DNA of 64,000 nucleotides from [Phormidium] sp. LEGE 05292 (GTDB lineage Bacteria; Cyanobacteriota; Cyanobacteriia; Cyanobacteriales; Aerosakkonemataceae): the NCBI RefSeq assembly GCF_015207735.1, contig NZ_JADEWG010000012.1, positions 1 through 64,000 of the forward strand, in the 5' to 3' direction. Made by a program: the position numbers and the translations under genes. The notes beneath the pieces are model-generated. The model was not told the origin of the DNA. It did not search any database and was given only the letters and a program-made list of their open reading frames with translations. Below, piece after piece: positions 9,160-27,116 of the stretch. The first letter of the stretch is position 1, and each line of letters begins with the position of its first letter.

Positions 9160-12100
9160 ATGAAGATCGCAAAATCCGACTTAGCAAAAATTGTAGCCCA
9201 AGCTAGCTCTCTGTCAGAGCGCTTCTCAGTGGAGTCGTTTGCAGTTAATGATACAGATACTCAGGAATCACAACATCATCCTCGCCTCGATCGCTGGTGT
9301 CAAGTGGTGGCTCAAGGAAACTGGGAAAAGTTTGCCAAACGGTTAATCTGGGATGATTTGAATTTAAAGCAAGCAGATAAAATAGTGCGAGCGCTTCCGC
9401 CTATAGATCCTGAAGTTTTGCCAACTTGGGCAGAAACCTTACATGAAATTATCCAGGCTGCTTGGTTATTCGCTAACGATCCAGAAAAAAGAGCAGAAAT
9501 TTTTGCCTGTGACTTAAAAGATCGGCATAATTTTGCTTCTGAAGATGAGTATAATTATCCAGCCATTAATCAAATCGATCGATTACCTTTAGATCCAGGA
9601 ATAAAACTACCCTTTAAAGAAGTATTACTTCCAGCGATTTCTGTAGCAAGGCAGAAATTATTAAATTCTCTAAATTATCCAACATCTTTGCCTTTAGAAT
9701 TGCTTTCTCATTCAGCTTATTTTACATTAGAACGCAATTTACTGAATCAACTATTAAATCTGAGTGGAAAAACTTTAGAATATGAATTTGCTCGTTCTCG
9801 TCCTTTAGGTCAAAATTTGCTGAATTTGTTACGGCAATCAACTGGCGATCGCGCACAAATAAAAGTTCAATACGATGCTTTTATCCACAAACTTTTGCAA
9901 GACGGAATGCTAAGTTTTTTCCAAAATTATCCTGTGCTAGGACGCTTAATCGCAACAGCAATTGATTTTTGGGTAGAAGCAACAGCCAAATTTTTACACC
10001 GCTTGCAAACCAACTTAAATGATATCCAGCAAGTATTTCAACCAGAAAATAATTCCTTCTATAAATTAGGCAAAATTATTAAAATTAAGCCTGCTCTTTC
10101 CGATCCTCATAATTCTGGCGATAGCGTAATTGCGTTCACCTTTCAAAGTGGATTGCAGCTAGTTTACAAACCCAAAGGTTTAGGAGCAGAAGTAGCTTAC
10201 ACTCAGTTTTTAGAATGGTGCAATCAGCAAGGAATTGCCTTGCCATTTAAAGTTTTAAAAGTCTGCGATTACCAAACTCATGGCTGGGTGGAATATGTAG
10301 AACATTTACCCTGTGAAGATGAAGCCGCAGCCCAGCGTTTTTATCAACGCGCTGGAATGTTATTATGCCTGCTTTATGCACTGCGAGTAGTTGACTGCCA
10401 CCGGGAAAATTTAATCGCTCACGGAGAACATTTGGTGTTAATTGACATGGAAACTATCATGCACCAAGAAGCCAATCCTTTAACCCAATTGCAAGAAGAA
10501 ACAGAAGCCGAAACAACTGTAAATTTCCACTTTGCTGACTCAGTTTTACGCACAGGGTTATTACCCCGTTGGGAATTTGGAAAAAACAAACGTCTGGCTT
10601 ATGATACCAGTGCATTAGGTAGTATTGAAGCGCAAGTAACTGCACCACCAGAAGAACAGGGAGAAACCAAAGATTTGCAATTTTCTATTCCTCCCAATAT
10701 ACCAATCTTAAATAATTTTCCCCTCTCTCCGAATGATTATTTATCAGAGATAATCACTGGATTTGAGCAAATGTATCAGTTTTTGATTGAAAAACGTGAA
10801 ATTTTGCTAGCACCTGATACGCCACTATTATTAATGAAAAATCAGAGAGTGAGGTTTATCTTTCGCGCCACCAAAATTTATTGGACAATTTTACAAAAAA
10901 CTTTTGCACCCCAATTTCTCCGCGATGGGATCGATCGCAGCATTGAACTAGACATACTCGCTCGTGCTTTTTTAGTTGCCAATCAAAAACCAAATGCTTG
11001 GTCAATATTTCATGCGGAACTGAAAGCAATGGAGCAAATGGATATTCCCTACTTTGCCGCCTATCCTGACAGTCAAGACTTAACAATTGGTTTAGAACAA
11101 CCCATTGAACAATATTTTAAAAAATCCAGTTATCACGAAGTAATCTCACAATTACAAAATTTAAATGAAACCAATTTAGCCCAACAAATAGAGATAATTA
11201 AAGGCTCATTTTATGCCAGAGTAGTGCGGAATAATTTAAGTAATAACCCCATAATCACCAATTTATCCACCCTAGTTCCCACAGATTTATCGCAACTTTA
11301 CCCCTTAACCAAAAAGCAATTAATTCAAGAAGCAACTCGCATTGCCAAAGAAATTGAACAACGAGCCATTTGGGGAAAAGATGGCAGCGTAAAATGGATT
11401 AGTTTTGCCTATATTCCTAACGTCGAAATCTTTCAACTAATGCCTTTGCCAGAAGACCTTTACAACGGTAACGGCGGGATTGCATTATTTTTATCAGCCT
11501 TAGATTATGTCAGAGGTACACAACAATTTCATGAGCTAAGTTTAGCAGCTTTTCAATCAATACAGAAATTTCTCCAAACTGCTGATTTTGAATCTACTCG
11601 CAGATTCGTGCGCTTAGGAATTGGCGGTGGTACAGGACTAGGTTCCATGATCTACGCCTTAGTAAAATCTAGTCACTTTCTTCAAGAACCTACACTTTTA
11701 GAAAATGCTTTAGCTATTGCTCAATTAATTACTCCCGAACTCATTACCACTGACAAACAATTTGATATCATTGGCGGAGCAGCCGGAGCAATTCTAGGAT
11801 TATTGGCATTATACGCAGCAACAAAAGAACCAAAGGTTTTAGCAACAGCTATTAATTGCGGTCAACATTTACTCGCCCACCAAACAGAACCAATAAAACA
11901 ATTTTATTCTCCAAATTTACCAATTCAAAATCTGAAATCTGGGAAAGCGTGGAATATTTTAGGACAGAAATATTACACAGGTTTTTCTCACGGTGCAGCT
12001 GGCATTGCTTATGCTCTATTACGGCTTTATGCAGTAACTCAAACAGAAGCCTTTTTGACAGCAGCCACTGATGGTATTACTTATGAACATAGTGTATTTT

Positions 12101-12570
12101 CTCCTACAGTTTCAAATTGGCCTGATTTTCGCGCATTTGCTCAACAAAATGGTCAACCTGGTTTCATGGTGAGTTGGTGTCATGGTGCAACTGGAATTGG
12201 ATTAGCCAGGTTAGGAGGTTTGTCAGTATTAAAGACAAATCAAATAGAACAGGATATAGAAATTGCTTTGCAAACAACTCAAAAGTATAGTTTGCAGGAT
12301 GTGGATTGTGTTTGTTGTGGGAATTTCGGTCGCATCGAACTGTTGCAGGTAGCCGCTGAAAAATTATCCCGTCCCGACTTGAAAGAAATTGCCGAACAAA
12401 GAACTACTTGGGCAGTCAACTGGGCAGAAAAATCAGGAGGATATAAATTACCCAATTTGCCCAATTCCGTATTTAGCCCTAGCTTTTTTCAGGGAACATC
12501 GGGAATTGGCTATGAATTACTCCGGCTAGCATACCCAGAACTGTTACCTTCCGTTTTGTTGTGGGATTAG
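9160..12570 (+). CDS. lanM: LanM-type class II lanthionine synthetase
   Basis: A 1136-residue bifunctional enzyme that phosphorylates and dehydrates Ser/Thr of a precursor peptide, then cyclises Cys onto the dehydro residues. The N-terminal dehydratase (DUF4135) keeps the kinase-like catalytic set: D412-x-H414-x-x-N417 (in DCHREN) and D429-x-E431 (in LIDMET). The C-terminal LanC-like cyclase has H944 (FSHGAAG), C1007 (SWCHGATG) and C1052-C1053 (CVCCGNFG). The CCG in place of the usual CHG gives a three-Cys zinc site, the hallmark of the relaxed-specificity ProcM-like group known from cyanobacteria. Two precursor genes follow downstream on the same strand. The enzyme looks complete and active. 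ATG at 9160 is the only sensible start. Confidence 0.93.
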   Translation: MKIAKSDLAKIVAQASSLSERFSVESFAVNDTDTQESQHHPRLDRWCQVVAQGNWEKFAKRLIWDDLNLKQADKIVRALPPIDPEVLPTWAETLHEIIQAAWLFANDPEKRAEIFACDLKDRHNFASEDEYNYPAINQIDRLPLDPGIKLPFKEVLLPAISVARQKLLNSLNYPTSLPLELLSHSAYFTLERNLLNQLLNLSGKTLEYEFARSRPLGQNLLNLLRQSTGDRAQIKVQYDAFIHKLLQDGMLSFFQNYPVLGRLIATAIDFWVEATAKFLHRLQTNLNDIQQVFQPENNSFYKLGKIIKIKPALSDPHNSGDSVIAFTFQSGLQLVYKPKGLGAEVAYTQFLEWCNQQGIALPFKVLKVCDYQTHGWVEYVEHLPCEDEAAAQRFYQRAGMLLCLLYALRVVDCHRENLIAHGEHLVLIDMETIMHQEANPLTQLQEETEAETTVNFHFADSVLRTGLLPRWEFGKNKRLAYDTSALGSIEAQVTAPPEEQGETKDLQFSIPPNIPILNNFPLSPNDYLSEIITGFEQMYQFLIEKREILLAPDTPLLLMKNQRVRFIFRATKIYWTILQKTFAPQFLRDGIDRSIELDILARAFLVANQKPNAWSIFHAELKAMEQMDIPYFAAYPDSQDLTIGLEQPIEQYFKKSSYHEVISQLQNLNETNLAQQIEIIKGSFYARVVRNNLSNNPIITNLSTLVPTDLSQLYPLTKKQLIQEATRIAKEIEQRAIWGKDGSVKWISFAYIPNVEIFQLMPLPEDLYNGNGGIALFLSALDYVRGTQQFHELSLAAFQSIQKFLQTADFESTRRFVRLGIGGGTGLGSMIYALVKSSHFLQEPTLLENALAIAQLITPELITTDKQFDIIGGAAGAILGLLALYAATKEPKVLATAINCGQHLLAHQTEPIKQFYSPNLPIQNLKSGKAWNILGQKYYTGFSHGAAGIAYALLRLYAVTQTEAFLTAATDGITYEHSVFSPTVSNWPDFRAFAQQNGQPGFMVSWCHGATGIGLARLGGLSVLKTNQIEQDIEIALQTTQKYSLQDVDCVCCGNFGRIELLQVAAEKLSRPDLKEIAEQRTTWAVNWAEKSGGYKLPNLPNSVFSPSFFQGTSGIGYELLRLAYPELLPSVLLWD

Positions 12571-13145: not shown

Positions 13146-13739
13146 ATGATGTCACATCTTTCGGTTCAATCAATTAATGTAGAAGAATTACCTGCCCAAG
13201 AGTACAGCTTCGTCAAAACTCAACAAGCTATCTACAATTTATGTACAGAGATAGAAAATAATAGCGAGCTCAAATCCCAAATAGAGGAAATACAAGATAT
13301 TAGTTCTTTCCTCACCATAGCAGCTGAAAATGGCTATGAATTTACAGCTTCCGACTTGCAAACTGCCCTGAGTTTGGCTTTAGAAAATACTTACGGAATT
13401 TCTGATGAATTTGATGATTACGAACTGGATGAAGAAGAGTTGGAAGCAGTTGCAGGCGGTGCTAGAGCCGCAGCCAAGAATAGCTATTGGCATGAAACAG
13501 GGATTGATGTTGATGGTCAATGTTTCTACTTGTTACAACAATCCCTTGAACAACGACAGGTGGTAGTCCAAGCGCTACGAGATATGGACAAATGGGAATG
13601 GCTTGGCAATAATTCAGTGAAGGTCACTGATACTCATGGAAAATTGGGTTCATTCGTAATATCTAATATCACGAATAACGGTGCTTTTACTAAAGATATC
13701 AGTACGTTAGATTACTCTTTTTGGGAAAAAATTTTATAA
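13146..13739 (+). CDS. Nif11-type leader RiPP precursor with long core, paralogue 1
   Basis: A 197-residue precursor-like protein. Residues 1-105 are a Nif11-like leader (signature FLTIAAENGYEFTASDLQ at 55-72) ending in an acidic helix and the double-Gly site EAVAGG (104-105). A C39 peptidase would cut there, leaving a core of about 92 residues starting ARAA. The core has one Cys (C126) and conserved S113 and T118 upstream of it, so at most one lanthionine or methyllanthionine ring is possible. The rest is Trp/Asn-rich and protein-like, far longer than common lanthipeptides. ATG codons at 13146 and 13149 are both usable. The second paralogue follows after 183 bp. It is inferred to be the LanM substrate and exporter cargo. 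Confidence 0.85.
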   Translation: MMSHLSVQSINVEELPAQEYSFVKTQQAIYNLCTEIENNSELKSQIEEIQDISSFLTIAAENGYEFTASDLQTALSLALENTYGISDEFDDYELDEEELEAVAGGARAAAKNSYWHETGIDVDGQCFYLLQQSLEQRQVVVQALRDMDKWEWLGNNSVKVTDTHGKLGSFVISNITNNGAFTKDISTLDYSFWEKIL

Positions 13740-13922
13740 CTGTGGAGAATAAGCAAAATTTAATCATGATTATTTGCTGAAAATTGAGAAATTTTCTATT
13801 ATCTCAACAGAACATAATTTTTTTAGGTTATCATCTTAAAATCTATGACAATTAATTAAGTTTACAGCCTATAGATCTCCTATCTATAGAAACTTTATGT
13901 TGAACTTTGGAGAAAATTACTG

Positions 13923-14543
13923 ATGTTGCAAAACTCGATCGAGCCAATCAATGCAGAAGATTTACCCGTCGATGAATATCGTTTTGTCAAAGCTCAACAA
14001 AATATTTATGAACTATGCCAAAATCTTGAACAAGAACAAACATTAAAATCTTCTTTGGAAAATGCCAAAAACACCGAAGAATTTCGGCAAATTGCTGGAG
14101 AATATGGCTACGAGTTTACAATTTCAGATTTGCAATTTGCTCTACATTGGGCTGGGCAAAAAACAGACCCGAATTTTGATGAATTAGATGATTATGAACT
14201 GGATGAAGAAGAGTTGGAAGCAGTTGCAGGTGGTGCGAGAGCAGCCACTAAAAATAGTTACTGGCATCAGACTGGTATTTTAGTTAACCAACAATGTTTT
14301 CATTTAGTTGACCAATCAACTGAAGCACGCGCTCAGATAGAAACAGCACTGCAAACAATGGAACTTTGGGTATGGGAAGGCAATAACACCGTATCACTGA
14401 TCGATCTCGATGGGCAATATAGCCCGTACAAGTTGACTGGTATTGCTTATGATGGGCTGGCTTTAAGTTTGTTACAGAATACATCGGATCGAAATAAATG
14501 GTCGAATTACTCATCTGGTAACATCACAAACCTTCTTCTTTAA
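13923..14543 (+). CDS. Nif11-type leader RiPP precursor with long core, paralogue 2
   Basis: A 206-residue paralogue of the preceding gene. The leader (1-104) has the Nif11 signature around GEYGYEFTISDLQ and the same acidic stretch ending EAVAGG. The predicted core (105-206, about 102 residues) begins ARAATKNSYWHQTG and shares with paralogue 1 the pattern S-Y-W-H-x-T-G-I-x-V-x-x-Q-C-F, then Q-S-x-E-x-R and W-x-W-x-GNN-x-V. C125 is the only core Cys; S112 and T117 are the conserved candidate dehydration sites. The C-terminal 30 residues differ from paralogue 1 and are rich in Ser, Asn and Thr. A terminator lies 29 bp downstream. The ATG at 13923 is preceded by TTTGGAGAAAATTACTG, with GGAG at a suitable distance. 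Confidence 0.85.
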   Translation: MLQNSIEPINAEDLPVDEYRFVKAQQNIYELCQNLEQEQTLKSSLENAKNTEEFRQIAGEYGYEFTISDLQFALHWAGQKTDPNFDELDDYELDEEELEAVAGGARAATKNSYWHQTGILVNQQCFHLVDQSTEARAQIETALQTMELWVWEGNNTVSLIDLDGQYSPYKLTGIAYDGLALSLLQNTSDRNKWSNYSSGNITNLLL

Positions 14544-14607: not shown

Positions 14608-14730
14608 ATGCTTACAGCCTTAATCATGATTGACTAGTTATAATAGTGCCGACTTGATTAATTTGTGTAATATAGATAACTTTACAAAATTGTTAAATTT
14701 TTATACTTTTTCCTCAAGGTGGTTTATCAA

Positions 14731-17532
14731 ATGCAAACTTGTGCTTGGAAAAGATTTGGCTGGCGGTTGAGTCAGTTAGGTTACTTAACTTTTAGTGGAA
14801 TTGCTTTATCAACTCAAGTTAGTTTAGCTCAGATTGTTCCTGATGCGACTTTAGGGAATGAAAGCTCTGTTGTTACTCCCAGTGCAATCAAAGATCTTCC
14901 TAGCGATCGAATTAATGGGGGAGCAGTTCGCGGTAATAATTTGTTTCACAGTTTTCGAGAATTTAATGTTGGTGCTGGGCGGGGGGTTTATTTTGCTAAC
15001 CCTGATGGGGTGACGAGGATTTTGACTAGAGTAACAGGAAATAATGTTTCGCAAATCTTAGGAACTTTGGGTGTTCTGGGTAATGCGGATTTATTTTTAA
15101 TTAATCCCAATGGAATTATTTTTGGGCAGGGTGCAAGATTAGATCTTAATGGTTCATTTATTGGCAGTACGGCTAGCAAAATTAGTTTTGGGGATGGTTT
15201 AGAATTTAGTGCAACTAATCCGCAAGCGTCACCATTGCTGAGTGTTAATGTTCCGATCGGGTTACAATTTGGCACAAATCCGGGTCGAATAGTGAATCAA
15301 AGTACAGATGAAGGGAACAATATCGCTCCACTCCGTCCGTATTATCCCGTACCTAGATTAAGAGTAGCTCCGGGAAGAACTTTTGCGTTGATAGGTGGTG
15401 ATGTGCTGATTGAAGGCGGCACTATGGGAGCTTTTGAAGGAAGAATTGAGTTAGGTAGTGTTGGTGATAATGGTTTTGTGGGTTTAAGTCCGATCGCACA
15501 AGGTTGGGCATTGAATTACGATCGAGTACAAAACTTTGGTGACATTAACCTATCTCAAAATGCCGTTGTTGATACCAGTGGGCAAAGAGGCGGCGATATT
15601 CAAGTACGAGCCAGAAACTTAACTCTCCAAGAAGGCGCAATCATTTATTATGTCCATGAAGGTTCAGAAGTTGGGGGAAATCTAGATGTCACCACCACTG
15701 ATTCAGTCGAACTTATTGGTGGACTTAATCCGTTTTTTTCGGTTCCTACCCTTGATACCTATACTCAGATCTCTGCTACTACCCGGGGAACTGCAACTGG
15801 AACTGCTGGTAATGTAACAGTTAAAACTCGCAGATTAACTATTCGAGATGGCGCGAGTCTAAGTAATATTTCTAATGGCAATGGAAATGCAGGAAACTTA
15901 ACAGTTTTAGCCTCAGAATTAGTAGAAGTGACTGGTATAGCAGCAGACGAATCTATACCTAGCAACATAGTTAATCAAACTTACAAGATTGATGGGGATG
16001 GTATACCGATTGGTAATGCTGGAAATATCACCATTGAAACCGAACGACTACTAATTGAAGATGGAGCGTTCGTAAGTAGTGGCACTTATACCGCAGGTCA
16101 GGCGGGAAATCTGACTATTAAGGCTGCGGAGTCTGTAGAAATCATTGGTGCAACCCGTGAAACTGATTTTTTAACAGGGATTGCCGCAACAGTTGAGTTT
16201 GACCAATTCACCAATATTCGGGCTACAGGCAATGGGGGTAATTTGACGATTCAAACCAGAAGACTATCAGTTCAAAATGGAGGACAAATCGCTAGTTCTA
16301 CCAGTGCAGATGGAAATGCCGGGAATTTAGTAATTGATGCTTCTGAGTCTGTCGAACTAGTTGGCGTTGATCCAAATGCTGATGCAGTATTAGGTAGCAG
16401 TGGTTTGTTTGTCTCCGCAGAAAGAGGTAGAAATGGAAACCCAGGAGATGCTACTGGTAATGTAGGGAATTTAACAGTGAACACGAGAAGATTGCTGATT
16501 CAAGATGGAGGGAGAATTTCTGCTGATAATTTTGGCTCTGGAACTGGGGGAGATTTAACGATTAATGCTAGAGAAGTGAACCTGCAAAGTGGGGGAACAG
16601 TGAGAGCAAATTCTTTTAGCACTGGCTCTGGGGGAATGTTAACTGTGAATGCTGAAAATGTGAATATCAGTGGCAGCAGAATTTTAGGAGATCAGTTAAT
16701 TAATAGTGGCTTATTTGTAAGTGGTGCGGGTTCTGGTGCGGCGGGTAGTTTGGAAGTGAATGCGGCAAAAGTTCAACTTGATAATACAGGGAGATTGGCA
16801 GCTGATAGCACAGCTGGGTCTGGGAATATCAGGGTGCAAGCACGAGATTTATTATTGTTACGTGGTAATAGCTTAATTAGTACTAATTCTACAGGTGAAG
16901 AACCAGGGGGAAATATTAGCCTGACAACAAATAATTTAGTAGCTTTAGGAAATAGTGATATTACAGCTAATGCTACTAATAGCCAGGGCGGTCGAGTAAG
17001 TATTAACGCAACTGGTATTTTTGGGCCACAATATCGATTAGAACAAACTCCCAATAGCGATATTACAGCTACCGGGGGAAATCCTGAATTAAATGGAGTA
17101 GTAGAAATCAATTCGCCTGAAGTTGATGTGAATTCTGGGTTAGTTTATTTACCTACAAATCTGATTGATGTATCTGGATTAGTTGCTCAAAATGCTTGTA
17201 CATCACAACAAGCAGAGGGTAGTTCTTTTGTGGTGACAGGTCGGGGTGGTTTACCACCTAATCCTGTTAATCCGGCAACTAATGAAGCGGTAATGGTGGA
17301 ATGGGCAAGAGTTGCTGATATGAATCAAAATGTTAACTCTCAGAGACGTACAAATAGCAGGAGTAATTCTCATGTTAGGGCGGCAAGAAACTATGAGCAA
17401 ATTGTGGAAGCTCAAGGTTGGGTTGTTGGGGCTGATGGCAGAGTGGTGTTGACTGCTGAAGGAGGAAGAACAACGCCTCAAAGTTTTAGTTTAATTCATC
17501 CTAGCTGCGATATTTTACCAGTTCAAAACTAG
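14731..17532 (+). CDS. Filamentous haemagglutinin-like secreted protein (TPS domain)
   Basis: A 933-residue secreted protein. A Sec signal peptide (cut after about SLAQ, residue 34) is followed by a two-partner-secretion N-terminal domain (IVPDATL, then NPDGVTRI and FLINPNGIIFGQGARLDLNGSF). The remainder is repetitive beta-helix with many GNAGNLTV/GGDLTINAR-type turns. The C-terminal part has ACTSQQ...GRGGLPPNP, common in cyanobacterial members. The ATG at 14731 is preferred over a GTG at 14719 because AAGGTGG lies directly upstream at good spacing. A TpsB outer-membrane pore (FhaC/ShlB type), normally needed for export, is not in this window. The CHAT gene follows after 21 bp, so the two are probably co-transcribed. 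Confidence 0.88.
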   Translation: MQTCAWKRFGWRLSQLGYLTFSGIALSTQVSLAQIVPDATLGNESSVVTPSAIKDLPSDRINGGAVRGNNLFHSFREFNVGAGRGVYFANPDGVTRILTRVTGNNVSQILGTLGVLGNADLFLINPNGIIFGQGARLDLNGSFIGSTASKISFGDGLEFSATNPQASPLLSVNVPIGLQFGTNPGRIVNQSTDEGNNIAPLRPYYPVPRLRVAPGRTFALIGGDVLIEGGTMGAFEGRIELGSVGDNGFVGLSPIAQGWALNYDRVQNFGDINLSQNAVVDTSGQRGGDIQVRARNLTLQEGAIIYYVHEGSEVGGNLDVTTTDSVELIGGLNPFFSVPTLDTYTQISATTRGTATGTAGNVTVKTRRLTIRDGASLSNISNGNGNAGNLTVLASELVEVTGIAADESIPSNIVNQTYKIDGDGIPIGNAGNITIETERLLIEDGAFVSSGTYTAGQAGNLTIKAAESVEIIGATRETDFLTGIAATVEFDQFTNIRATGNGGNLTIQTRRLSVQNGGQIASSTSADGNAGNLVIDASESVELVGVDPNADAVLGSSGLFVSAERGRNGNPGDATGNVGNLTVNTRRLLIQDGGRISADNFGSGTGGDLTINAREVNLQSGGTVRANSFSTGSGGMLTVNAENVNISGSRILGDQLINSGLFVSGAGSGAAGSLEVNAAKVQLDNTGRLAADSTAGSGNIRVQARDLLLLRGNSLISTNSTGEEPGGNISLTTNNLVALGNSDITANATNSQGGRVSINATGIFGPQYRLEQTPNSDITATGGNPELNGVVEINSPEVDVNSGLVYLPTNLIDVSGLVAQNACTSQQAEGSSFVVTGRGGLPPNPVNPATNEAVMVEWARVADMNQNVNSQRRTNSRSNSHVRAARNYEQIVEAQGWVVGADGRVVLTAEGGRTTPQSFSLIHPSCDILPVQN

Positions 17533-17553: not shown

Positions 17554-20166
17554 ATGAAAATTAAGAATATATTAATTATATGTTTGGGAATTTTATCTTT
17601 TTTCGGCGTGATTTGGTGGGGGAAAAATGCGATGTCACTTTCGCTTTTTCCAGACAGCGAAGTAAGTTTAAAGCAGTTAATTGTTGATAATTCAGTGAGT
17701 GATTGGGAAGCGCAAGCAGAAAAATTTTATACAGAGGGAAGGTTTGGGGATGCGATCGCTCTTTTAGAAAAACTAAACAATAATTATGTGGCTCAAGGTA
17801 ATGAGTTGGGTCAAGCGAGAGTGGCGAGAAATTTGGCTTTAGTTTATCAACAAACTGGAGAGTGGTCTAAGGCTCAATCAGCAATTACTCAGAGTTTAAA
17901 TCTGCTGGACAAACAAGCTAATAGCAAAGAACGTCAACTATTATTAGCGCAAGCTTTAGAAGTTCAAGGACTTTTACAATTAGCGATCGGTCAGCCGGAA
18001 AAAGCTTTGGATACTTGGCAAAAAGCTACAATTAATTATCAAGAGATTGGTGATTTTACTGGGGTAACTCGAAATCAAATTAATCAATCCCAAGCTTTAG
18101 AAAGATTGGGTTTATATCGTCAGACAATTAAAGTTTTGGATAGGTTAAATGCAACATTGCAACAGCAACCAGATAGTTTAGTAAAGGTTAAATGTTTGCA
18201 AAGTTTGGGAGATGCTTTGCGAGTAGTGGGGGACTTAGATCGATCGCAAAAAATTTTAGAACAAGGTTTAGCAATTGCGGAAAATTTAAAAGCAGCTGAT
18301 GCGATCGCGTCAATGCTATTAAGTTTAGGAGAAACAGCAAGACTAGCGCAAGAGTTACCCACCGCTTTGGATTACTATCAAAAGGCAGTGCAAACTACTA
18401 CTTCTCCATATATTAAAACTCAAGCTATGCTAAATTATTTAAATGTTTTAGTTAATCAGAAAGAAGGGGAAAAAGCACTGGAATTGTTACCGCAAATTCA
18501 AGCTAGTTTAACTCAGTTACCTTTGAGCAGACAAGCAATTAATGCGCGGATTAATTTAGCGAGAAAGTTAATGCAGCTGAGGAAAGAAGCAAGTAATCAA
18601 TTATCACTTCCTAGTAATGCGGAAGTTGGTAAAATGTTAGCAACCGCAGTCCAACAAGCTGAAACTTTACAAGATCAACGGACATTATCTTATGCTGTTG
18701 GAAACTTCGGTAGGTTGTATGAAGAAAACCAACAATGGGATTTTGCTCAACAATTAACGAAAAAAGCTTTACTGTTATCTCAAAGTATTAATGCTACTGA
18801 TATTAACTTTCGTTGGCAGTGGCAATTAGGGAGAATTTATAAACAGCAGGGGAATCGTCAAGAGGCGATCGCAGCTTATAATCAAGCTGTTAATTCTCTG
18901 CAATCTATTCGCAGCGATTTAGTAGCAATTTCCGCAGAAGCTCAGTTTGATTTTCGAGATACCATAGAACCAGTTTATCGAGAATTAGTCGATTTACTCT
19001 TACCAGTAGGACAAGTTGTAGAACAATCTGATTTGCAAAGAGCACGGACTTTAATTGATTCTTTACAATTAGCTGAACTGGATAACTTTTTCCGAGATGC
19101 TTGTTTAAAAACCCAAGCTGTTAAAATTGACCAAATCGATCCGAAAGCTGCGGTTATTTCTACAATTATTTTAAGTAATACCAATACTTCGAGTATAAAC
19201 GAACGGATAGAAGTAATTGCAGCATTGCCAGGAAAACCTTTGCGGCGATACACAACTGTTTTACCTAGCAAAGAAATTGAAGCAACAATAACAAGAGCTA
19301 ACGATGCTCTGACTATTCCTCGACTACGACTTTCGCAAAAAAATTATTTTATTGAAGCTAAAAAATTCTACGATTGGTTAATTCATCCCATTGAAAATGA
19401 TTTAGCAAATAGTGGTATACAAACTTTAGTATTTGTCTTAGATGGTTCCTTAAGAAATATCTCGCTCGCAGGGATTTATGATGGACAAAAGTATTTAGTG
19501 CAAAAATACAGTGTGGCGATCGCGCCAGGGTTACAATTAGTAGATGCCAAACCTTTACAATATCATGATATGAGAGTGCTAACGGCGGGATTAAGCGAAG
19601 CGCGTCAAGGATTTGCCCCACTTCCTAATGTATCTACCGAATTGAATGATATTGCTAAAGAAATTCATACTGAAAAGCTACTAAATCAATCTTTTACAGC
19701 ATCTAATTTTAAAACAAAAGTTCAAAGCGATAAATTTCCTATCATTCATTTAGCAACTCATGGTAAATTTAGTTCTAAAGCAGCTGATACTTTTATTTTG
19801 ACTTGGGATAAAAAGATTAATGCCAAGGACTTAGACACGCTTTTACGTAGCAATCAGAGCGTTACTAACCCAATAGAATTATTAGTTTTTAGTGCTTGTC
19901 AAACTGCTGCTGGAGATAATCGAGCAACTTTAGGATTGACGGGAATTGCTGTGCGAGCAGGGGCACGAAGTACTTTGGCAACTTTGTGGAGTGTTGATGA
20001 TGAAGCGACTGCTTTATTTATGTCACATTTTTACAAAGAGTTAAATAATAACAAAGTTACAAAAGCCGAAGCTTTACGTCGTACTCAACAGTTATTTTTG
20101 CAGGATAGCCAATTTTCTCATCCCTATTTTTGGTCAGCGTTTGTTTTAGTAGGAAATTGGTTATGA
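17554..20166 (+). CDS. TPR repeat protein with C-terminal CHAT protease-like domain
   Basis: An 870-residue protein with an N-terminal hydrophobic anchor (about residues 5-22, IILIICLGILSFFGVIWW or similar). Tetratricopeptide repeats follow (about 50-480), then a CHAT domain (about 620-870), a caspase-like fold. The catalytic dyad is visible: H736 in IHLATHG and C782 in VFSACQT. CHAT proteins are proven proteases in a few systems; in cyanobacteria they often neighbour haemagglutinin-like genes. The stop codon TGA (20164-20166) overlaps the ATG of the HlyD adaptor gene (20163) in the arrangement ATGA, so the two are translationally coupled. This ties it to the peptide exporter. A role in processing or activating a secreted product is inference. 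Confidence 0.88.
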   Translation: MKIKNILIICLGILSFFGVIWWGKNAMSLSLFPDSEVSLKQLIVDNSVSDWEAQAEKFYTEGRFGDAIALLEKLNNNYVAQGNELGQARVARNLALVYQQTGEWSKAQSAITQSLNLLDKQANSKERQLLLAQALEVQGLLQLAIGQPEKALDTWQKATINYQEIGDFTGVTRNQINQSQALERLGLYRQTIKVLDRLNATLQQQPDSLVKVKCLQSLGDALRVVGDLDRSQKILEQGLAIAENLKAADAIASMLLSLGETARLAQELPTALDYYQKAVQTTTSPYIKTQAMLNYLNVLVNQKEGEKALELLPQIQASLTQLPLSRQAINARINLARKLMQLRKEASNQLSLPSNAEVGKMLATAVQQAETLQDQRTLSYAVGNFGRLYEENQQWDFAQQLTKKALLLSQSINATDINFRWQWQLGRIYKQQGNRQEAIAAYNQAVNSLQSIRSDLVAISAEAQFDFRDTIEPVYRELVDLLLPVGQVVEQSDLQRARTLIDSLQLAELDNFFRDACLKTQAVKIDQIDPKAAVISTIILSNTNTSSINERIEVIAALPGKPLRRYTTVLPSKEIEATITRANDALTIPRLRLSQKNYFIEAKKFYDWLIHPIENDLANSGIQTLVFVLDGSLRNISLAGIYDGQKYLVQKYSVAIAPGLQLVDAKPLQYHDMRVLTAGLSEARQGFAPLPNVSTELNDIAKEIHTEKLLNQSFTASNFKTKVQSDKFPIIHLATHGKFSSKAADTFILTWDKKINAKDLDTLLRSNQSVTNPIELLVFSACQTAAGDNRATLGLTGIAVRAGARSTLATLWSVDDEATALFMSHFYKELNNNKVTKAEALRRTQQLFLQDSQFSHPYFWSAFVLVGNWL

Positions 20167-21788
20167 ATAGTCCAGAAAAAAGAAAAATTTTTCGTAGAGA
20201 ATCGCTGAATTATTTATCTACTCCAGAGCGTTTAGATGAGTTAATTAAAGTAATTAGTCCTCAAGATTGGATTCCTTTGGTGACATTAGGTGGATTGGTA
20301 TTAGTTGGTTTAGTTTGGAGTATTTTTGGTAGAATTCCGATTACGGTTGCTGGTCAAGGGGTGTTATTGCGATCGCGCCAAGTGGTAGAATTGCAATCTC
20401 CCATTTCGGGACAGTTGCAAGAATTAAAAGTTAAAGAGGGTGATTGTCTGCCCAATCCTCAAGGAATGATAGCTACTATTGAGCCTTTGGAATTAAAACA
20501 AAAACGAGAATTAGAAATGCAGAAATTAGCGGAATTACAAAAGCAAGACCGGGAAGCTAGTGCGATCGCATTACAAAAAAATCAACTAGAAAAAATAGAA
20601 TTAAATCAGCAAAAAACCAGCTTAAAACAACGTTTACAAGATGCTCAATCTCTTACACCATTACTAAAAAATCAAAGTACAAGTTCCATTACTAAACAAG
20701 GAGAAAGCTTAAAACAACGTCTGCAAAACTTACAATCTTTAACGCCAGTTCTTCGGAGTAAAAGAAGCGGTGCAATTCAACAGAAACGAGAAAGTTTACA
20801 ACAACGTCTACAAGATGCTAAAGCCCAAGCTCCTGTGCTGAAAGAAAGGCTAGAAATCCGGCAGGAATTAGCAAAACAAGGAGCAATTCCCAAGGATCAA
20901 GTATTAGAAGCAGAACGACAATACAGAGATAGTTTGCAAAATGTAGCAGAAGTTCAAGCTCAATTAAAACAATTAGATGTCGATCAAACCCAAGCGGAAC
21001 AAGCTTTCTTAGAAAATTTGAATTCAATTGGCGAAATTCAATCTCAGCTAAAAAAGCTGGAACTTGACAAAACGGAAGCTGAACAAAGATATGTCGATAA
21101 TTTGAATAAAATTTCCGAAATCGGAACGCAGTTAAACGAGTTAGATACTAAAGCAAAAACTCTGGAACAACAAAACTTAGATACTACCAATAATCGCAAA
21201 AATCAAATTCTAGAAGTTGAGAATCAAGTTAAAGCTTTTGACCAACAAATTCAAATAAACAGCGTCATTACAAGCCCTTATGAGGGATGTATTCTCGAAC
21301 TTACTGTTACTAATGGTCAAGTTGTGAGTCCGGGGAGTCGTATTGGCTCAATTCAAATTCAAAAATCTGCTCAACCGCTATTAGCAGTTACTTATTTTGC
21401 TGTGAGAGATGGTAAGCAAATTAAACCAGGGATGCCAATTCAAATTACACCGAGTCTTGTAAAACGGGAAAGATTTGGAGGAATTGTGGGAAATGTGGTT
21501 TCAGTTTCGCCATTTCCGGTGACTAAACAAGGTGCTGCTAGTACAATTGGTAATCCAGAAATAGTAGAAAGTTTGCTGTCTCAATCTAAAGAAGCACAGA
21601 TAGAAGTTTGGGCAGAATTAAAGGAAAATCCTCGTAATTTTAGTGGCTATGAATGGTCTTCTTCCCAAGGGCCATTAGATGTAAAAATGTCTACTGGTAC
21701 CACGACTTCAGCACAAGTTACTGTACAACAACGCGCACCAATTGAGTTTGTTTTACCATTTTTGCGGGAATGGAGTGGGATTAAGTGA
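20163..21788 (+). CDS. HlyD-family adaptor of NHLP-type peptide export system
   Basis: A 541-residue membrane-fusion adaptor for a peptide ABC exporter. One membrane segment (about residues 40-60, IPLVTLGGLVLVGLVWSIFG) is followed by a biotinyl/lipoyl-like half (VVELQSPISGQLQELKVKEGD). Then come a long coiled-coil hairpin (about 105-360) and the returning lipoyl and beta-barrel parts (ITSPYEGCILELTVTNGQVVSPGS). The hairpin includes three tandem copies of a unit like LKQRLQDAQSLTPLL. The start ATG at 20163 overlaps the CHAT gene stop; a GTG at 20130 is not credible. Position immediately before two NHLP ABC genes matches the usual three-gene secretion module. Confidence 0.88.
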   Translation: MNSPEKRKIFRRESLNYLSTPERLDELIKVISPQDWIPLVTLGGLVLVGLVWSIFGRIPITVAGQGVLLRSRQVVELQSPISGQLQELKVKEGDCLPNPQGMIATIEPLELKQKRELEMQKLAELQKQDREASAIALQKNQLEKIELNQQKTSLKQRLQDAQSLTPLLKNQSTSSITKQGESLKQRLQNLQSLTPVLRSKRSGAIQQKRESLQQRLQDAKAQAPVLKERLEIRQELAKQGAIPKDQVLEAERQYRDSLQNVAEVQAQLKQLDVDQTQAEQAFLENLNSIGEIQSQLKKLELDKTEAEQRYVDNLNKISEIGTQLNELDTKAKTLEQQNLDTTNNRKNQILEVENQVKAFDQQIQINSVITSPYEGCILELTVTNGQVVSPGSRIGSIQIQKSAQPLLAVTYFAVRDGKQIKPGMPIQITPSLVKRERFGGIVGNVVSVSPFPVTKQGAASTIGNPEIVESLLSQSKEAQIEVWAELKENPRNFSGYEWSSSQGPLDVKMSTGTTTSAQVTVQQRAPIEFVLPFLREWSGIK

Positions 21789-21965: not shown

Positions 21966-24146
21966 ATGGCAATCAAAAATAAAAAATCAAACATTGTCAA
22001 GACTCCGACAGTACTACAAATGGAGGCTGTAGAATGTGGTGCTGCTGCTTTGGGAATGATTTTAAGTTATTACGGCAAATTTGTACCTTTAGCGGAACTT
22101 CGGCAAGAGTGTGGAGTATCTCGTGATGGTATGAATGCCGCTAATTTATTGAAAGCTGCTAGACATTATGGAATGAAAGCTAAAGGTTATAAAAAAGGTT
22201 TAGAAACTTTAAAAGAAATGCCAGTTCCTTATATAGTATTTTGGAATTTTGACCATTTTTTAGTCGTAGAAGGGTATGAGCGCGATCGCGTTTTTCTCAA
22301 TGACCCAGCTAGTGGTAGACGCAAAGTAACAAAACAGGAATTTTCCCAGGCATACACGGGAGTTGTGTTGGAAATAAAACCGGGAACTGAGTTTCAAAAA
22401 GGTGGACAAAAACGCAATACAATTTTGGCTTTACATTCTCGGCTAAAAAATTCTTATGATGCAGTTTTGTTGTCTATTCTAGCAGGGTTGTTTTTGACTT
22501 TTCCCCGTTTAGCAGTACCCGCTTTTAGTCAAGTTTTTACTGATGAAATTTTGGTGCAAGGTCGAGAAGATTGGTTACGACCTTTATTAATTGGAATGGT
22601 GATTACTGCGATCGTGCAAAGTCTATTATCCAGATTACGCCTAATCTACTTACGGCGACTAACAATTAAGCTTTCTATGGTAATGACAGGGCAGTTTATT
22701 TGGCATACTTTACGCTTACCAGTAGGATTTTATGCCCAACGTTTTGCAGGTGAAATTGGCAATCGCGCCGCCATCAATAATAAAGTTGTCGGTGTAATCA
22801 ACAGTATTTCCACTACTGTAATTGACAGCATGATGTTAATATTTTACGCAGCTTTAATGTTTATGTACGATTGGGTGCTAACAGTAATGACTATCAGTTT
22901 TGCTATAATTAATATTATCACATTGCAATTATTACGCCGGATTCGTCTAGATGCTAACTTAAAAATTAGTCAACAAAGTAGTAAACTGTCTGGGGTAACA
23001 ATTGACAGTTTACAATCAATTGAAACAATAAAAGCTTCTGGTTTAGAATCTGATTTATTTGCTAAGTTTGCTGGTTATCACGCTAAAACAATTAACGCCC
23101 AACAGGAATTAGCTTTACAAAGCCAAACTTTAACTTTATTACCAACAATTTTAAGCTCATTGGCAACAACTGCTCTTTTAGTAGTTGGCGGCTTCCGGGT
23201 AATGGATGGTAGTTTAACAATTGGAATGTTGGTAGCTTATCAAACTTTAATTAGCAGCTTTTTAGCGCCAGTAAATAGTTTAGTTAATTTTGGCAGTACC
23301 TTACAAATTTTAGAAGCGGATCTCGATCGCCTTGATGATGTTTTACAAAACCCTGTCGATCCAGAAGTTATCAGAGAAGAAACAGTAAATCAATTAACTA
23401 TTAATAACTTTCCATCTTTTAAATTACTAGGTTATGTTGAATTACATAATATTTCTTTTGGCTATAATCGCTTAGAAACTCCTTTGATTGAAAACTTAAA
23501 TTTATCCTTAAAACCTGGACAGCGAGTAGCGATAATTGGTAGTAGTGGTTCTGGTAAATCTACCATAGCAAAACTAATTTCAGGTTTGTATGTTCCTTGG
23601 TCAGGCAAAATTTTATTTGATGGTATTTCTCGCCTGGAAATTCCCCGCTTAGTTTTAGCAAATTCACTGGCAATGGTGGAACAAGATATATTTATATTCA
23701 AAGGTTCTGTACGAGAAAATTTAACGCTTTGGAATTCAACTATAAGTGAAGAAAACTTGGTGCAAGCTTGTCAAGATGCAGCAATTCATGACTTTATTTT
23801 ATCCAGTTTAGGAGGATATAGCGCCGAAATTGCTGAGGGAGGAATTAATTTGAGTGGCGGGCAACGTCAACGTTTAGAAATTGCCAGGGCGCTAGTCATG
23901 AATCCGAGAATTTTAGTATTAGATGAAGCTACAAGTTTTTTAGATGCGGAAACTGAATTAATTATCGATCGCAATCTGCGGCGACGTGGTTGTTCTTGCA
24001 TTGTCATCGCCCATCGCCTCAGCACAATTCGTGATTGTGATGAAATTATTGTCATGGAAAGAGGTAAAGTTGCCCAAAGAGGAACCCATGAAGAATTACA
24101 GCAACAGGGAGGAACTTATGCTAACTTACTATTAGCTACTAGCTGA
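21966..24146 (+). CDS. NHLP-family ABC exporter with C39 peptidase domain
   Basis: A 726-residue peptidase-containing ABC transporter that would cleave leaders after Gly-Gly and export the core. Residues 1-140 are a C39 peptidase with oxyanion Gln Q18, catalytic C24 (EAVECGAA), H97 (FDHFLVVEG) and D113 (LNDPASG), all present. Residues about 160-450 are a six-helix permease. Residues about 490-726 are the ATPase with Walker A GSSGSGKST, signature LSGGQ and Walker B ILVLDEAT. It corresponds to the peptidase/permease/ATPase member of the NHLM secretion module that accompanies Nif11- or nitrile-hydratase-type leaders. The VAGG sites of the two precursors are its likely cleavage points. Confidence 0.93.
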   Translation: MAIKNKKSNIVKTPTVLQMEAVECGAAALGMILSYYGKFVPLAELRQECGVSRDGMNAANLLKAARHYGMKAKGYKKGLETLKEMPVPYIVFWNFDHFLVVEGYERDRVFLNDPASGRRKVTKQEFSQAYTGVVLEIKPGTEFQKGGQKRNTILALHSRLKNSYDAVLLSILAGLFLTFPRLAVPAFSQVFTDEILVQGREDWLRPLLIGMVITAIVQSLLSRLRLIYLRRLTIKLSMVMTGQFIWHTLRLPVGFYAQRFAGEIGNRAAINNKVVGVINSISTTVIDSMMLIFYAALMFMYDWVLTVMTISFAIINIITLQLLRRIRLDANLKISQQSSKLSGVTIDSLQSIETIKASGLESDLFAKFAGYHAKTINAQQELALQSQTLTLLPTILSSLATTALLVVGGFRVMDGSLTIGMLVAYQTLISSFLAPVNSLVNFGSTLQILEADLDRLDDVLQNPVDPEVIREETVNQLTINNFPSFKLLGYVELHNISFGYNRLETPLIENLNLSLKPGQRVAIIGSSGSGKSTIAKLISGLYVPWSGKILFDGISRLEIPRLVLANSLAMVEQDIFIFKGSVRENLTLWNSTISEENLVQACQDAAIHDFILSSLGGYSAEIAEGGINLSGGQRQRLEIARALVMNPRILVLDEATSFLDAETELIIDRNLRRRGCSCIVIAHRLSTIRDCDEIIVMERGKVAQRGTHEELQQQGGTYANLLLATS

Positions 24147-24185: not shown

Positions 24186-27116
24186 ATGTTAAATTCTGAT
24201 TTATTTAAATTACTGCATAACTTTAAAGGCAACCAACCTTTACTACTAGATAATCCCCAGAAGGTTTGGGTAGTTCAAGCTGGTACAATGGCGATTTTTG
24301 TTACCAAAATTGTAGCAGGAGAAGCTATAGGCGATCGACGTTATCTGTTTAGTGTTAGTGCGGGAGAAGCATTATTTGGTGTTGCTTTATGGGGAGAAGA
24401 AACACCGGAAAATGTAGAGTTAGACGAAAATTTTCCATCTTTTAACTATGGACTTTTAGCAGTTGCTATTCAAGAAAGTGTAGTTTTAGAACTAGATTTT
24501 GCCGATTTAATTTCCCAGATAGCAGCAGGTGACACAGAAGTAATTCTTTTATTAGAAAGTTGGATCGATCGCATCAGTAAATTAGTTGCTACTCCGGGCA
24601 TATCAAATTCAAAAAATCAAATACAATCCACAGATTCTAGCCCGGATAAATTATCTAAAGGGCAAGTACTACAAGCATCTTCTAAAACAATTTTTTGGGT
24701 GAAAGTTCATCAAGGTAGTACAGCTTGGATGGGCATAGAAGAATTAAGCTTAGATCCTAAATCTCCCCCGTTTCCCCTCGCTGCTTCTACCTGGGTAGAA
24801 TCACTTAATCTTGTTGAAATTGACATAATTAAAACTGTGGAAATTGCGGAAGAGTTATCTCAGAGTTTAGCTTTATTTCATTCTTATGCTTGCCGCTATC
24901 TTGAAATCAAACATCAACAGAAATTAGAAGCAGAAATTCAACAATTTCAGCAACTACAACTGTTAAATCATCAAGTAACCGAAAATGCTTTTAATTCCTT
25001 AGCTTCCGCCTTACAACCGCAACAAATACAGCCAGAAGAAACGCCTTTATTAATCGCTGCTGGGGCTGTTGCTAGAGCAATGGAAATTCCAATTCGTCAC
25101 CCAATTAAATCAGTAAATTTACAGCAAATAGATCCGGTAGAGGCGATCGCCATAGCCTGGAAAATTCGCATCCGGCGTGTTTCCTTAAATGGGGAATGGT
25201 GGAAACAAGAATATAACCCACTTTTAGCTTTTACCACTGATAAGCGTCCAGTAGCTTTGTTAGTTGATAAAAGCAAAGGTTATCGTTATTTTTTGTTCGA
25301 TCCAGAAACTCGCACTCGCACATTAGTTAATAGAAATATTGCCTCTACTTTAGCCTCAGAAGCTTATATATTTTATCGTCCTTTACCGCAAGTAATTAAT
25401 CAAGCATTTGAAGTGTTTAAATTTGGCATCAAAGGATATGAAACTGAAACAATTAAAATTATCATTGTGGGAATTGTGGGTACAATTTTGGGGATGGCGG
25501 TTCCCCAAGCCACAGCAATTTTAATTAATCAAGCAATTCCTGATGGCGACCGCCTACTTTTATTACAACTAGCATTAGCTTTATTAGCAGTATCTTTTGG
25601 CAAAACTGCATTTAATCTATATCAAGGATTAGTTGCTTTACGAGTTAGTAACGGAATTAATAGCACTCTTCAAATAGCTATTTGGGATAGATTACTAAGA
25701 TTAAATCCGTCATTAATTAGGCAATTCACCACTGGCGATTTGCTAGTACGGATTATGTCTATTAGCCAAATATATAGCATTTTTAGCGGTGCTACTCAAC
25801 GCACTTTATTAAGTGGTTTATTTTCTTTGTTAAATTTAGGATTAATGTTTATTTACGACCTAAAACTAACTTTAGTAGCTATAGCAGTGACTTTGCTAGC
25901 AGTAATTTTAACCATTATTTCTAGTTTTCTGTTATTAGGTAAAGAGCGACGGCAAGAGGAATTAAGTGGCGAAATTCAAGGATTAGTAGTACAACTAATT
26001 AATGGTGTACCTAAATTGCGAGTAGCAGTAGCAGAATCACGGGCTTTTGCAGCTTGGGCAAAAAGATATAGCGAACAAAACCAATTAACTAAGGAAATTA
26101 TTCAAGTTAATGATATCGTTTCTGTACTCAACGAATTACTATCTTTAATTAGTTTAATTTTATTATATTGGTTTGGATTTTCAGCTATTCAAAGTTCCCT
26201 AACGGGCGAAAGTAACTTAACACTGGGAACATTTCTAGCATTTAATTCTGCTTTTGGGATATTTTTTGGCGGGGTGACTTCTTTAAGTAATACTTTAATT
26301 AAACTGATAGAAATTGCGCCTTTATGGGAGCGATCGCAACCGATTTTACAAGGCACGTTAGAATTTGATGAACACAGAGCTAATCCCGGTCTTTTGAGTG
26401 GACAAATAAGATTAGAAAATATTACTTTCCGTTACCGAGAAGATAGCCCAATTATTCTTCATGAAGTAAACATCCACGCCAATCCAGGAGAATTTATCGC
26501 TATTGTTGGCCCTTCTGGAAGTGGTAAATCAACTATTTTTCGCTTATTATTAGGCTTTGAAACTCCTCAAAATGGCAAAGTTTATTATGATGGACAAGAT
26601 TTAGCTAATTTAGATTTACAAGCAGTGCGGCGACAATTAGGAGTAGTTTTACAAAATGGTCGAGTTACCCAAGGTTCAATTTTGGAAAACATTACTGGTG
26701 GCGCATTAGTTACAGTTGAAGAAGCTTGGGAAGCAGCAAGAATGGCGGGATTAGCTGAAGATATTGAACAAATGCCAATGGGAATACAAACGATCGTTAG
26801 TGAAGGAGGTACAAATCTTTCTGGAGGACAAAGACAAAGGTTATTAATTGCGCGATCGCTCATCTTTAAACCACCTATTATTCTCTTAGATGAAGCTACC
26901 AGTTATCTTGATAATAACACTCAAGCAATAGTGACAGAAAGCTTAGAAAAAATGAATGCTACAAGAATAATTATTGCCCATCGTTTGAGTACAATTCGCC
27001 ACGCCGATCGCATTTACGTCTTAGAATCAGGTCGCATATTACAAGTCGGTTCTTTTGCCGAATTAGTAAATCAACCAGGACTATTTGCTAAATTAGTAGC
27101 CCGACAATTAGAGTAA
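24186..27116 (+). CDS. NHLP-family ABC exporter, second subunit without peptidase
   Basis: A 976-residue ABC transporter starting 39 bp after the preceding one. The N-terminal 400 residues lack C39 motifs and form the soluble domain typical of the permease/ATPase partner in NHLM systems, with an initial segment resembling a cyclic-nucleotide-binding fold. Membrane helices occupy about 410-700. The ATPase follows with Walker A GPSGSGKST (around residue 775), signature LSGGQ and Walker B IILLDEAT, so ATP hydrolysis is likely. It probably forms a heterodimer with the C39 exporter, working with the HlyD adaptor. The gene ends the unidirectional locus; a MITE-like element begins one base after the stop codon. 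Confidence 0.9.
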   Translation: MLNSDLFKLLHNFKGNQPLLLDNPQKVWVVQAGTMAIFVTKIVAGEAIGDRRYLFSVSAGEALFGVALWGEETPENVELDENFPSFNYGLLAVAIQESVVLELDFADLISQIAAGDTEVILLLESWIDRISKLVATPGISNSKNQIQSTDSSPDKLSKGQVLQASSKTIFWVKVHQGSTAWMGIEELSLDPKSPPFPLAASTWVESLNLVEIDIIKTVEIAEELSQSLALFHSYACRYLEIKHQQKLEAEIQQFQQLQLLNHQVTENAFNSLASALQPQQIQPEETPLLIAAGAVARAMEIPIRHPIKSVNLQQIDPVEAIAIAWKIRIRRVSLNGEWWKQEYNPLLAFTTDKRPVALLVDKSKGYRYFLFDPETRTRTLVNRNIASTLASEAYIFYRPLPQVINQAFEVFKFGIKGYETETIKIIIVGIVGTILGMAVPQATAILINQAIPDGDRLLLLQLALALLAVSFGKTAFNLYQGLVALRVSNGINSTLQIAIWDRLLRLNPSLIRQFTTGDLLVRIMSISQIYSIFSGATQRTLLSGLFSLLNLGLMFIYDLKLTLVAIAVTLLAVILTIISSFLLLGKERRQEELSGEIQGLVVQLINGVPKLRVAVAESRAFAAWAKRYSEQNQLTKEIIQVNDIVSVLNELLSLISLILLYWFGFSAIQSSLTGESNLTLGTFLAFNSAFGIFFGGVTSLSNTLIKLIEIAPLWERSQPILQGTLEFDEHRANPGLLSGQIRLENITFRYREDSPIILHEVNIHANPGEFIAIVGPSGSGKSTIFRLLLGFETPQNGKVYYDGQDLANLDLQAVRRQLGVVLQNGRVTQGSILENITGGALVTVEEAWEAARMAGLAEDIEQMPMGIQTIVSEGGTNLSGGQRQRLLIARSLIFKPPIILLDEATSYLDNNTQAIVTESLEKMNATRIIIAHRLSTIRHADRIYVLESGRILQVGSFAELVNQPGLFAKLVARQLE

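Follow-up and report, generated by a model that had tools for sequence, protein, structure and literature searches.

Organization of the Locus

The window, which is the whole 64,000-nucleotide stretch of DNA that was analyzed, lies on contig C43 of genome G000. On the plus strand are found, in order, a LanM, two paralogous precursors (P0001 and P0002), a two-partner-secretion (TPS) exoprotein, a TPR-CHAT protein, an HlyD adaptor, a C39 exporter, and a second ABC subunit. The LanM is upstream of the precursors, with a gap of 575 bases between its end and P0001. The individual features are given below.

9160..12570, plus strand: LanM, class II lanthipeptide synthetase, 1136 aa (TIGR03897, 956.6 bits, 1.2e-287; PF13575 and PF05147, LANC_like)
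13146..13739, plus strand: precursor paralogue 1 (P0001), 197 aa (ORF)
13146..13460, plus strand: Nif11-type leader of P0001 with VAGG end (TIGR03798, 42.1 bits, 7.4e-11; PF07862, 3.1e-8)
13461..13736, plus strand: core of P0001, 92 residues (AlphaFold2 core model mef23dc60cfba)
13497..13499, plus strand: codon for Thr118 of P0001 (core Thr13), proposed dehydration site (Thr in 11 of 13 cores)
13521..13523, plus strand: codon for Cys126 of P0001 (core Cys21), proposed thioether donor (Cys in 11 of 13 cores)
13923..14543, plus strand: precursor paralogue 2 (P0002), 206 aa (ORF)
13923..14234, plus strand: Nif11-type leader of P0002 with VAGG end (TIGR03798, 37.3 bits, 2.4e-9; PF07862, 1.3e-8)
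14235..14540, plus strand: core of P0002, 102 residues (AlphaFold2 full-length model mdd38cc75aae7)
14271..14273, plus strand: codon for Thr117 of P0002 (core Thr13; core alignment)
14295..14297, plus strand: codon for Cys125 of P0002 (core Cys21; core alignment)
14719..17532, plus strand: TPS (filamentous-haemagglutinin-like) exoprotein (PF05860, 2.8e-59; TIGR01901; synteny)
17554..20166, plus strand: TPR-CHAT protein (PF12770, 1.3e-55)
20130..21788, plus strand: NHLM-type HlyD adaptor, whose true start is possibly the ATG at 20163 (TIGR03794, 1.2e-101)
21966..24146, plus strand: C39-peptidase ABC exporter, NHLM_micro_ABC1 (TIGR03796, 1107.3 bits; Peptidase_C39, 3.1e-39)
24186..27116, plus strand: second NHLM ABC subunit, NHLM_micro_ABC2 (TIGR03797, 1.7e-281)

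The LanM contains both a DUF4135 dehydratase domain and a LanC-like cyclase domain, the combination that defines a class II lanthipeptide locus. The NHLM/C39 set for double-glycine export is complete, with TIGR03794, TIGR03796, and TIGR03797 all above their cut-offs, and the C39-peptidase ABC exporter possesses Cys24 and the DH motif. Judged from its sequence, this exporter (21966..24146) is likely the Gly-Gly protease and exporter of the precursors. Beyond the exporter block, a CHASE2-GGDEF-EAL protein and a DUF928 protein are encoded at 27447-31526 of the window. DUF928-like proteins, judged by eye, are also found near the clusters in L020, L022, and L059, which hints at a wider module.

Precursor Leaders and Cores

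Both leaders terminate in ELEAVAGG, with the Gly-Gly at residues 104-105 of P0001 and 103-104 of P0002. Their assignment to the Nif11 family follows from this ending and from scores of 42.1 and 37.3 bits against a TIGR03798 cut-off of 32.3. The initial annotation had described unusually long regions after the Gly-Gly, and the ORF translations agree: the cores are 92 (P0001) and 102 (P0002) residues in length. The motifs that it had singled out (S-Y-W-H-x-T-G-I, Q-C-F, and W-x-W-x-GNN) are all found in the window cores, and the conserved Thr is indeed located eight residues before the Cys (T118/C126 in P0001 and T117/C125 in P0002, core positions 13 and 21 in both). It had also described the cores as having a single Cys. 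This holds for the two window cores but not across the family, where the number of Cys is one in 8 of 13 cores, two in 3, and zero in 2. With 13 and 18 Ser/Thr and a single Cys apiece, the window cores contain the residues required of a class II core (Ser/Thr and at least one Cys); 2 of the 13 homologues do not.

The core could not be assigned to a known family: no Pfam or NCBIfam match above the curated cut-off covers it, and a PHROGs search gave none at 0.01. Weak matches near the Gly-Gly site were obtained to Bacteriocin_IIc (0.019 and 0.029) and to cyan_ocin_like (4.4e-4 and 8.6e-4). A match of NF010112 to residues 122-166 of P0002 (0.0051; 16.4 bits against a cut-off of 243) was taken as chance, as were the weak matches into the core of NF003065 (0.043), Peptidase_M41 (0.084), Dehydratase_MU (0.14), and Latarcin (0.2).

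Distribution and Conservation of the Core

A search with the P0002 core gave matches in 9 of the 388 genomes of an order-level draw, and a profile built from 13 cores likewise matched 9 of the 388, with 8 genomes common to both searches. For the profile search of this draw and for the search of the phylum draw, up to 13 first-look candidates were scored per genome. Two matches were dropped as spurious, that in G260 for stops in frame and that in G068 as 28 residues within a 938-aa frame. There are 13 intact precursors in 8 genomes, two each in G000, G125, G074, G055, and G139, and one each in G032, G108, and G241. Since only one precursor is seen in G032 and G241, the presence of two components is not universal. 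All 13 cores stand behind a Nif11 leader ending in VAGG, and all 8 genomes possess a LanM. The case named in advance as fatal to the initial annotation, namely the core occurring as an ordinary protein without leader or LanM, was not encountered in the genome searches made. The cores of the family are 87-105 residues long with 0-2 Cys, and nine columns are invariant in 13 of 13.

The core is shared by relatives that include Argonema antarcticum A004/B2, MAG PMM_0008, and MAG UBA8803. In the Argonema genome paper (PMC9065122), the terms lanthipeptide, bacteriocin, RiPP, antiSMASH, and biosynthetic gene cluster do not occur. In the phylum draw (386 genomes), the sole match besides G000 was one of 43 residues in G621 with a stop in frame. 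No core was found in plasmids searched with P0002 or in viral contigs searched with the core alignment. Decayed precursor remnants accompany the intact genes of G074 and G108; C-terminal remnants of a further precursor paralogue lie at L019 7994-8230 and L023 10678-10848 in these two genomes.

A search with the leader covered 148 genomes, and 7 loci with long frames were followed up. This identified a ninth genome, G104, with a 197-aa precursor that reads SSYYHRTGI after the Gly-Gly and has a single core Cys. The G104 core has diverged, keeping the SYYHRTGI motif while most of the remainder is changed, and its Cys is 13 rather than 8 residues past the Thr, aligned to an insertion. When this core was compared with the 13-core profile, 1 of 2000 self-shuffles scored equal or better, which supports the relationship. 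The G104 LanM is 56% or 61% identical to that of the window, depending on the comparison. In G150, from the same genus, the leader is 91% identical and is truncated by the contig end. The pattern Y-x-H-x-T-G-I was also sought in the DNA of 62 genomes (the LanM-positive ones plus G121, excluding G032, G055, G074, G108, and G139). It occurs at 23 places, 6 of which are in precursors (two each in G000 and G125, one each in G241 and G104); the other 17 are in short or unrelated frames, and a reversed control pattern gave 8.

For eight Cys-bearing pairs of nine, dN/dS was 0.125-0.408 in the core and 0.069-0.245 in the leader, with synonymous change close to saturation in several pairs; the value for the core was higher in 7 of the 8. 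With 13 homologues intact and evolving under purifying selection, chance ORFs are ruled out. We do not claim that selection has been relaxed on the Cys-less cores, since their core dN/dS of 1.165 (0.349 for the leader) reflects a small number of changes and one member of the pair is a MAG rich in broken genes. In a tree of the 13 precursors, the six paralogue-2 sequences cluster (92/90), and no single supported clade unites the paralogue-1 sequences. An old duplication appears to have given rise to the two paralogues.

The Thr13-Cys21 Pair

The 11 Cys-bearing cores share the invariant columns S8, Y9, H11, T13, G14, I15, C21, F22, M42, N50, and D57, of which 8 fall within core residues 8-22. 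The two cores that lack Cys, each a paralogue 1 (from G074 and from G108), depart from this set at exactly two columns, Thr13 to Lys and Cys21 to Ser, and retain the other nine. If two of the 11 columns were to change at random, this pair would be expected once in 55. The initial annotation had already named Thr13 and Cys21 as the likely ring partners from two sequences. G074 and G108 belong to the same genus, so the joint loss is counted as one evolutionary event. Ser8 is kept in 13 of 13 cores and Ser28 in 12 of 13, the Cys-less ones included, and these residues are less likely ring partners because both stay when the Cys is lost. At the level of sequence, the co-loss supports a single putative Thr13-Cys21 methyllanthionine. 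The two Cys-less homologues contain no Cys anywhere, yet have open frames; 2 of the 13 are therefore unable to form any lanthionine.

Predicted Fold of the Core

AlphaFold2 models were built from alignments of 6 rows (the window and L043-L045 only). The P0001 core model has predicted strands at 8-11, 14-17, and 20-24, a helix at 29-41, strands at 44-49, 52-56, 64-68, and 70-75, and a last helix of low confidence at 86-91. Its mean pLDDT is 70.2, with block means of 62-84 over residues 11-80 and 80-84 over residues 31-70; the five models differ, from 70.2 for the best to 55.5 for the worst. The full-length model of P0002 has a mean pLDDT of 56.5 and block means of 65-87 over residues 111-180. 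Residues 112-179 of P0002 (core 8-75) follow the same order as the P0001 core: three strands, one helix, and four strands. With moderate confidence, both cores are predicted to share this seven-strand, one-helix order, and, together with the purifying selection, this supports the initial proposal that the core behaves like a conserved small domain.

Foldseek found no match among solved structures at E ≤ 0.001. VIA returned two rows, the better a designed protein (Z 2.8, rmsd 3.2, 65 aligned), and the best hmmsearch hit of the core against solved structures had an E of 0.41. None of the candidates from Foldseek or VIA was convincing. By inference from the DSSP string, residue 16 would lie opposite 21 and residue 13 opposite 24 in the hairpin 14-17/20-24, so the predicted fold of the unmodified chain offers no obvious approach of Thr13 to Cys21.

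LanM and Its Relatives

When aligned to LicM2 and CylM, the window LanM is seen to possess the dehydratase motifs VYKPK, DCHREN, and LIDMET and the cyclase motifs WCHG and CVCCG. From ProcM-type enzymes, we take WCHG and CCG to be the source of the zinc Cys in these LanMs. Each of the 8 genomes of the order draw that carry the core also carries a LanM. It adjoins the precursors in G000, G125, G055, G139, and G241 (where the copy is cut by the contig start), is separated from them by ~39 kb of a shared contig in G032, is on another contig in G074, and is in pieces in G108. Across the 388 genomes, with 2 first-look candidates scored per genome, a LanM at E ≤ 1e-200 was found in 65. The enzyme also occurs where the core is absent, namely in G091, G152, and G165.

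Twenty further LanM loci, 52-61% identical to the window LanM, were fetched, and precursors were sought with a sequence motif filter. Short-core precursors (7-35 residues, 0-4 Cys) are found at 14 of these, a long core that we designate family B at one (L086), and none by the filter at 5. A 41-residue "core" at L072 was dropped because it overlaps the LanM end. In a tree of 25 LanMs, a 100/100 branch has on one side the 9 of the present type (G150 and 8 whose core was seen) together with the 2 of family B, and on the other side 14 LanMs labeled "short"; for 12 of these, all but G352 and G355, a precursor with a short core was seen. Taken by themselves, the 9 present-type LanMs do not make up a single group, since family B is nested with G241 (92/67). 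The second zinc motif is D-C-[VL]-C-C-G in 9 of 9 present-type LanMs (eight with the core, plus G150), and His or Tyr replaces its first Cys in 8 of 8 other LanMs outside family B that were aligned.

Family B comprises precursor-like ORFs with a Gly-Ala site at L052 3652-4218 on the minus strand (G125, contig C67) and L086 6775-7296 on the plus strand (G302, contig C60), with their LanMs at L052 508-3654 and L086 7831-10971. It resembles the present system in its long cores (~91-100 residues) and in the adjacent LanM, an enzyme that falls on the present-type side of the LanM tree. Unlike the present precursors, those of family B have no Nif11 or other Pfam match and no detectable core homology. 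For the G125 member, hhalign gave a probability of 0.2%, and by HMM score 291 (G125) and 1492 (G302) of 2000 shuffles were equal or better, so family B was rejected as a relative of the core. Its LanMs also differ: the dehydratase motifs are kept, whereas WCHG aligns to SKFDI or SRFDI, which contain no Cys, and CCG aligns to ECG. By this one alignment of two loci, the two family B LanMs would lack two of the three presumed zinc Cys.

Substrates and Neighboring Genes

G000 has one LanM and four Nif11-leader matches at E ≤ 1e-4. The matches listed comprise P0001 together with two small ORFs of 77 and 86 aa, both lacking Gly-Gly and Cys; P0002 presumably accounts for the remaining one. The NHLP matches all fall within one 206-aa ORF without Gly-Gly, which we take to be nitrile hydratase alpha. 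As no other Gly-Gly Nif11 or NHLP substrate is present among the matches listed, P0001 and P0002 are the only Gly-Gly substrates found in G000. The sister species G125 encodes one more Nif11 ORF with a Gly-Gly site; it lies on contig C37, and its core is short and lacks Cys.

The TPS exoprotein directly follows the precursors in 8 of 9 family genomes (the window, G074, G055, G032, G108 in pieces, G139, G241, and G104, in which it is the gene directly after the precursor). G000 contains 8 TPS matches in 7.5 Mb at E ≤ 1e-10. In G125, the TPS exoprotein is located with CHAT, HlyD, C39, and ABC2 genes on another contig. This arrangement weakens the case for the exoprotein as a partner of the precursors, and the tie may instead be to the exporter module.

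Several further loci were observed in passing. TPS exoproteins lie inside 19-kb stretches with short-core LanM clusters at L074, L076, L077, and L078 (G382, G077, G002, and G320), accompanied by CHAT proteins in three of the four; a TPS/CHAT-LanM link may be wider in these cyanobacteria. At L059 7717-8637 (G032, contig C29), a 307-aa ORF that has a Nif11-like start followed by a long region of a different kind is found close to another LanM of the genome, a distant one with 27% identity; a Nif11 match in a 320-aa frame beside a distant LanM at L070 (G084) may resemble it. Nif11-leader ORFs with proline-rich cores of ~50-85 residues and repeated LYGV-like motifs occur at L065, L066, and L067 (G042, G091, and G084), and no LanM matched in the stretches fetched there. 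At L068 7209-8939 (G081, contig C37), a Nif11 leader and Gly-Gly read into a sensor-like protein (577 aa), perhaps a fusion.

Proposed Modification and Alternatives

The locus is best read as a variant of the Nif11/LanM lanthipeptide system in which the core is long and bears a domain, and the interpretation offered in the initial annotation is partly supported. In the proposed scheme, P0001 and P0002 would be dedicated substrates of the adjacent LanM, to which they would be brought by the Nif11 leader. LanM would dehydrate core Thr13, and addition of Cys21 by the same enzyme would close a single methyllanthionine ring toward the N-terminal end of a chain of ~95 residues. The stapled chain could then fold into a small, mainly-beta domain, and the C39 peptidase/ABC exporter with its NHLM partners would cut after the Gly-Gly and secrete it. 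The two paralogues may act as two extracellular components, possibly with the neighboring TPS exoprotein. The action of LanM on the precursors, the ring itself, the order of events, and the extracellular role are what we infer. We judge the chances to be slightly better than even that, all taken together, LanM modifies Thr13 and Cys21 under guidance of the leader, the core folds, and the C39 exporter cleaves and secretes the product.

The cores could instead be ordinary secreted small proteins that never become lanthionines, with the leader used for C39 export only and the LanM acting elsewhere. A C39 exporter requires just a Gly-Gly leader, and one Cys per ~95 residues, two Cys-less homologues, a predicted ordered fold, and strong conservation are what would be anticipated of such proteins. 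We nevertheless regard this explanation as unlikely: among the matches listed for G000 there is no other Gly-Gly Nif11/NHLP substrate, the LanM retains its cyclase motifs and is present in 8 of 8 core-bearing genomes, and Thr13 and Cys21 were lost jointly.

The concentration of 8 of 11 invariant columns in core residues 8-22, and the survival of SYYHRTGI in the otherwise largely changed G104 core, would fit a product in which core residues ~1-25 alone become a short lanthipeptide and the remainder is a follower or carrier domain that is removed later. This is improbable, given that M42, N50, and D57 are invariant too, that the whole core is under purifying selection, and that the helix and most strands are in the later part of the core.

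Dehydration by LanM of Thr13 and other Ser/Thr, with a product acting via dehydro-residues or via a Cys21 disulfide dimer of the paralogues, is consistent with the retention of Ser8 and Ser28, with the dehydratase motifs and reduced zinc Cys of the family B LanMs, and with the Cys-less NHLP substrates beside LanM that are expected to stay dehydrated according to an earlier study (PMC2887384), but it is very improbable because the nine aligned present-type LanMs retain the zinc motifs and the joint loss fits a Thr-Cys partnership.

The preferred reading, a LanM-modified domain with one Thr13-Cys21 ring, can be extended to family B. A branch of cyanobacterial LanMs may have switched from short ring-rich peptides to secreted domains of ~90-105 residues, with a Thr-Cys staple in the present system and only dehydrated residues in the unrelated long core of family B, where two of three presumed cyclase zinc ligands would have been lost. 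We put this forward tentatively and consider it somewhat doubtful.

Relation to Known Systems

Lanthionine synthetases are known for converting short leader-guided peptides to ring-rich products. In a prochlorosin-type system, one LanM is combined with many precursors with diverse cores; here, in contrast, one LanM is found with two related Gly-Gly Nif11 precursors among the matches listed. The present system is like the N11P and prochlorosin LanM substrates in its TIGR03798 leader, Gly-Gly site, LanM, and NHLM/C39 export. N11P beside LanM has been described in cyanobacteria, and, according to that report, similarity across the N11P family stops at the Gly-Gly, and NHLP-type cores beside LanM have an average length of 26 and high variability (PMC2887384). 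Here, the similarity continues through conserved cores of 87-105 residues, and with nine core columns invariant in 13 of 13 the window-type group does not have the variable core of N11P. RODEO family II 26 consists of cyanobacterial Nif11 lanthipeptide precursors (PMC7268733); these share the leader and the phylum with the present precursors and differ in their non-conserved cores. The other LanMs of the order (52-61% identical) belong to the same enzyme family and have double-glycine precursors nearby, mostly with short cores. In the portions of the open-licence PMC literature covered by a limited look, no description was found of LanM substrates with domain-sized cores.

In one large mining study, ORFs of 30-120 aa were scored and those without a core Cys were dropped (PMC7268733). 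Precursors of ~200 aa would be outside that search, and long precursors can be missed by mining with such length and Cys filters. Built-in controls for the purpose of the ring would be available in the paralogue that naturally lacks Cys and in the LanMs whose zinc sites are incomplete. If the proposed scheme is true, a LanM lineage for whole small domains would widen the substrate range of these enzymes and would suggest a natural route to thioether-stapled proteins.
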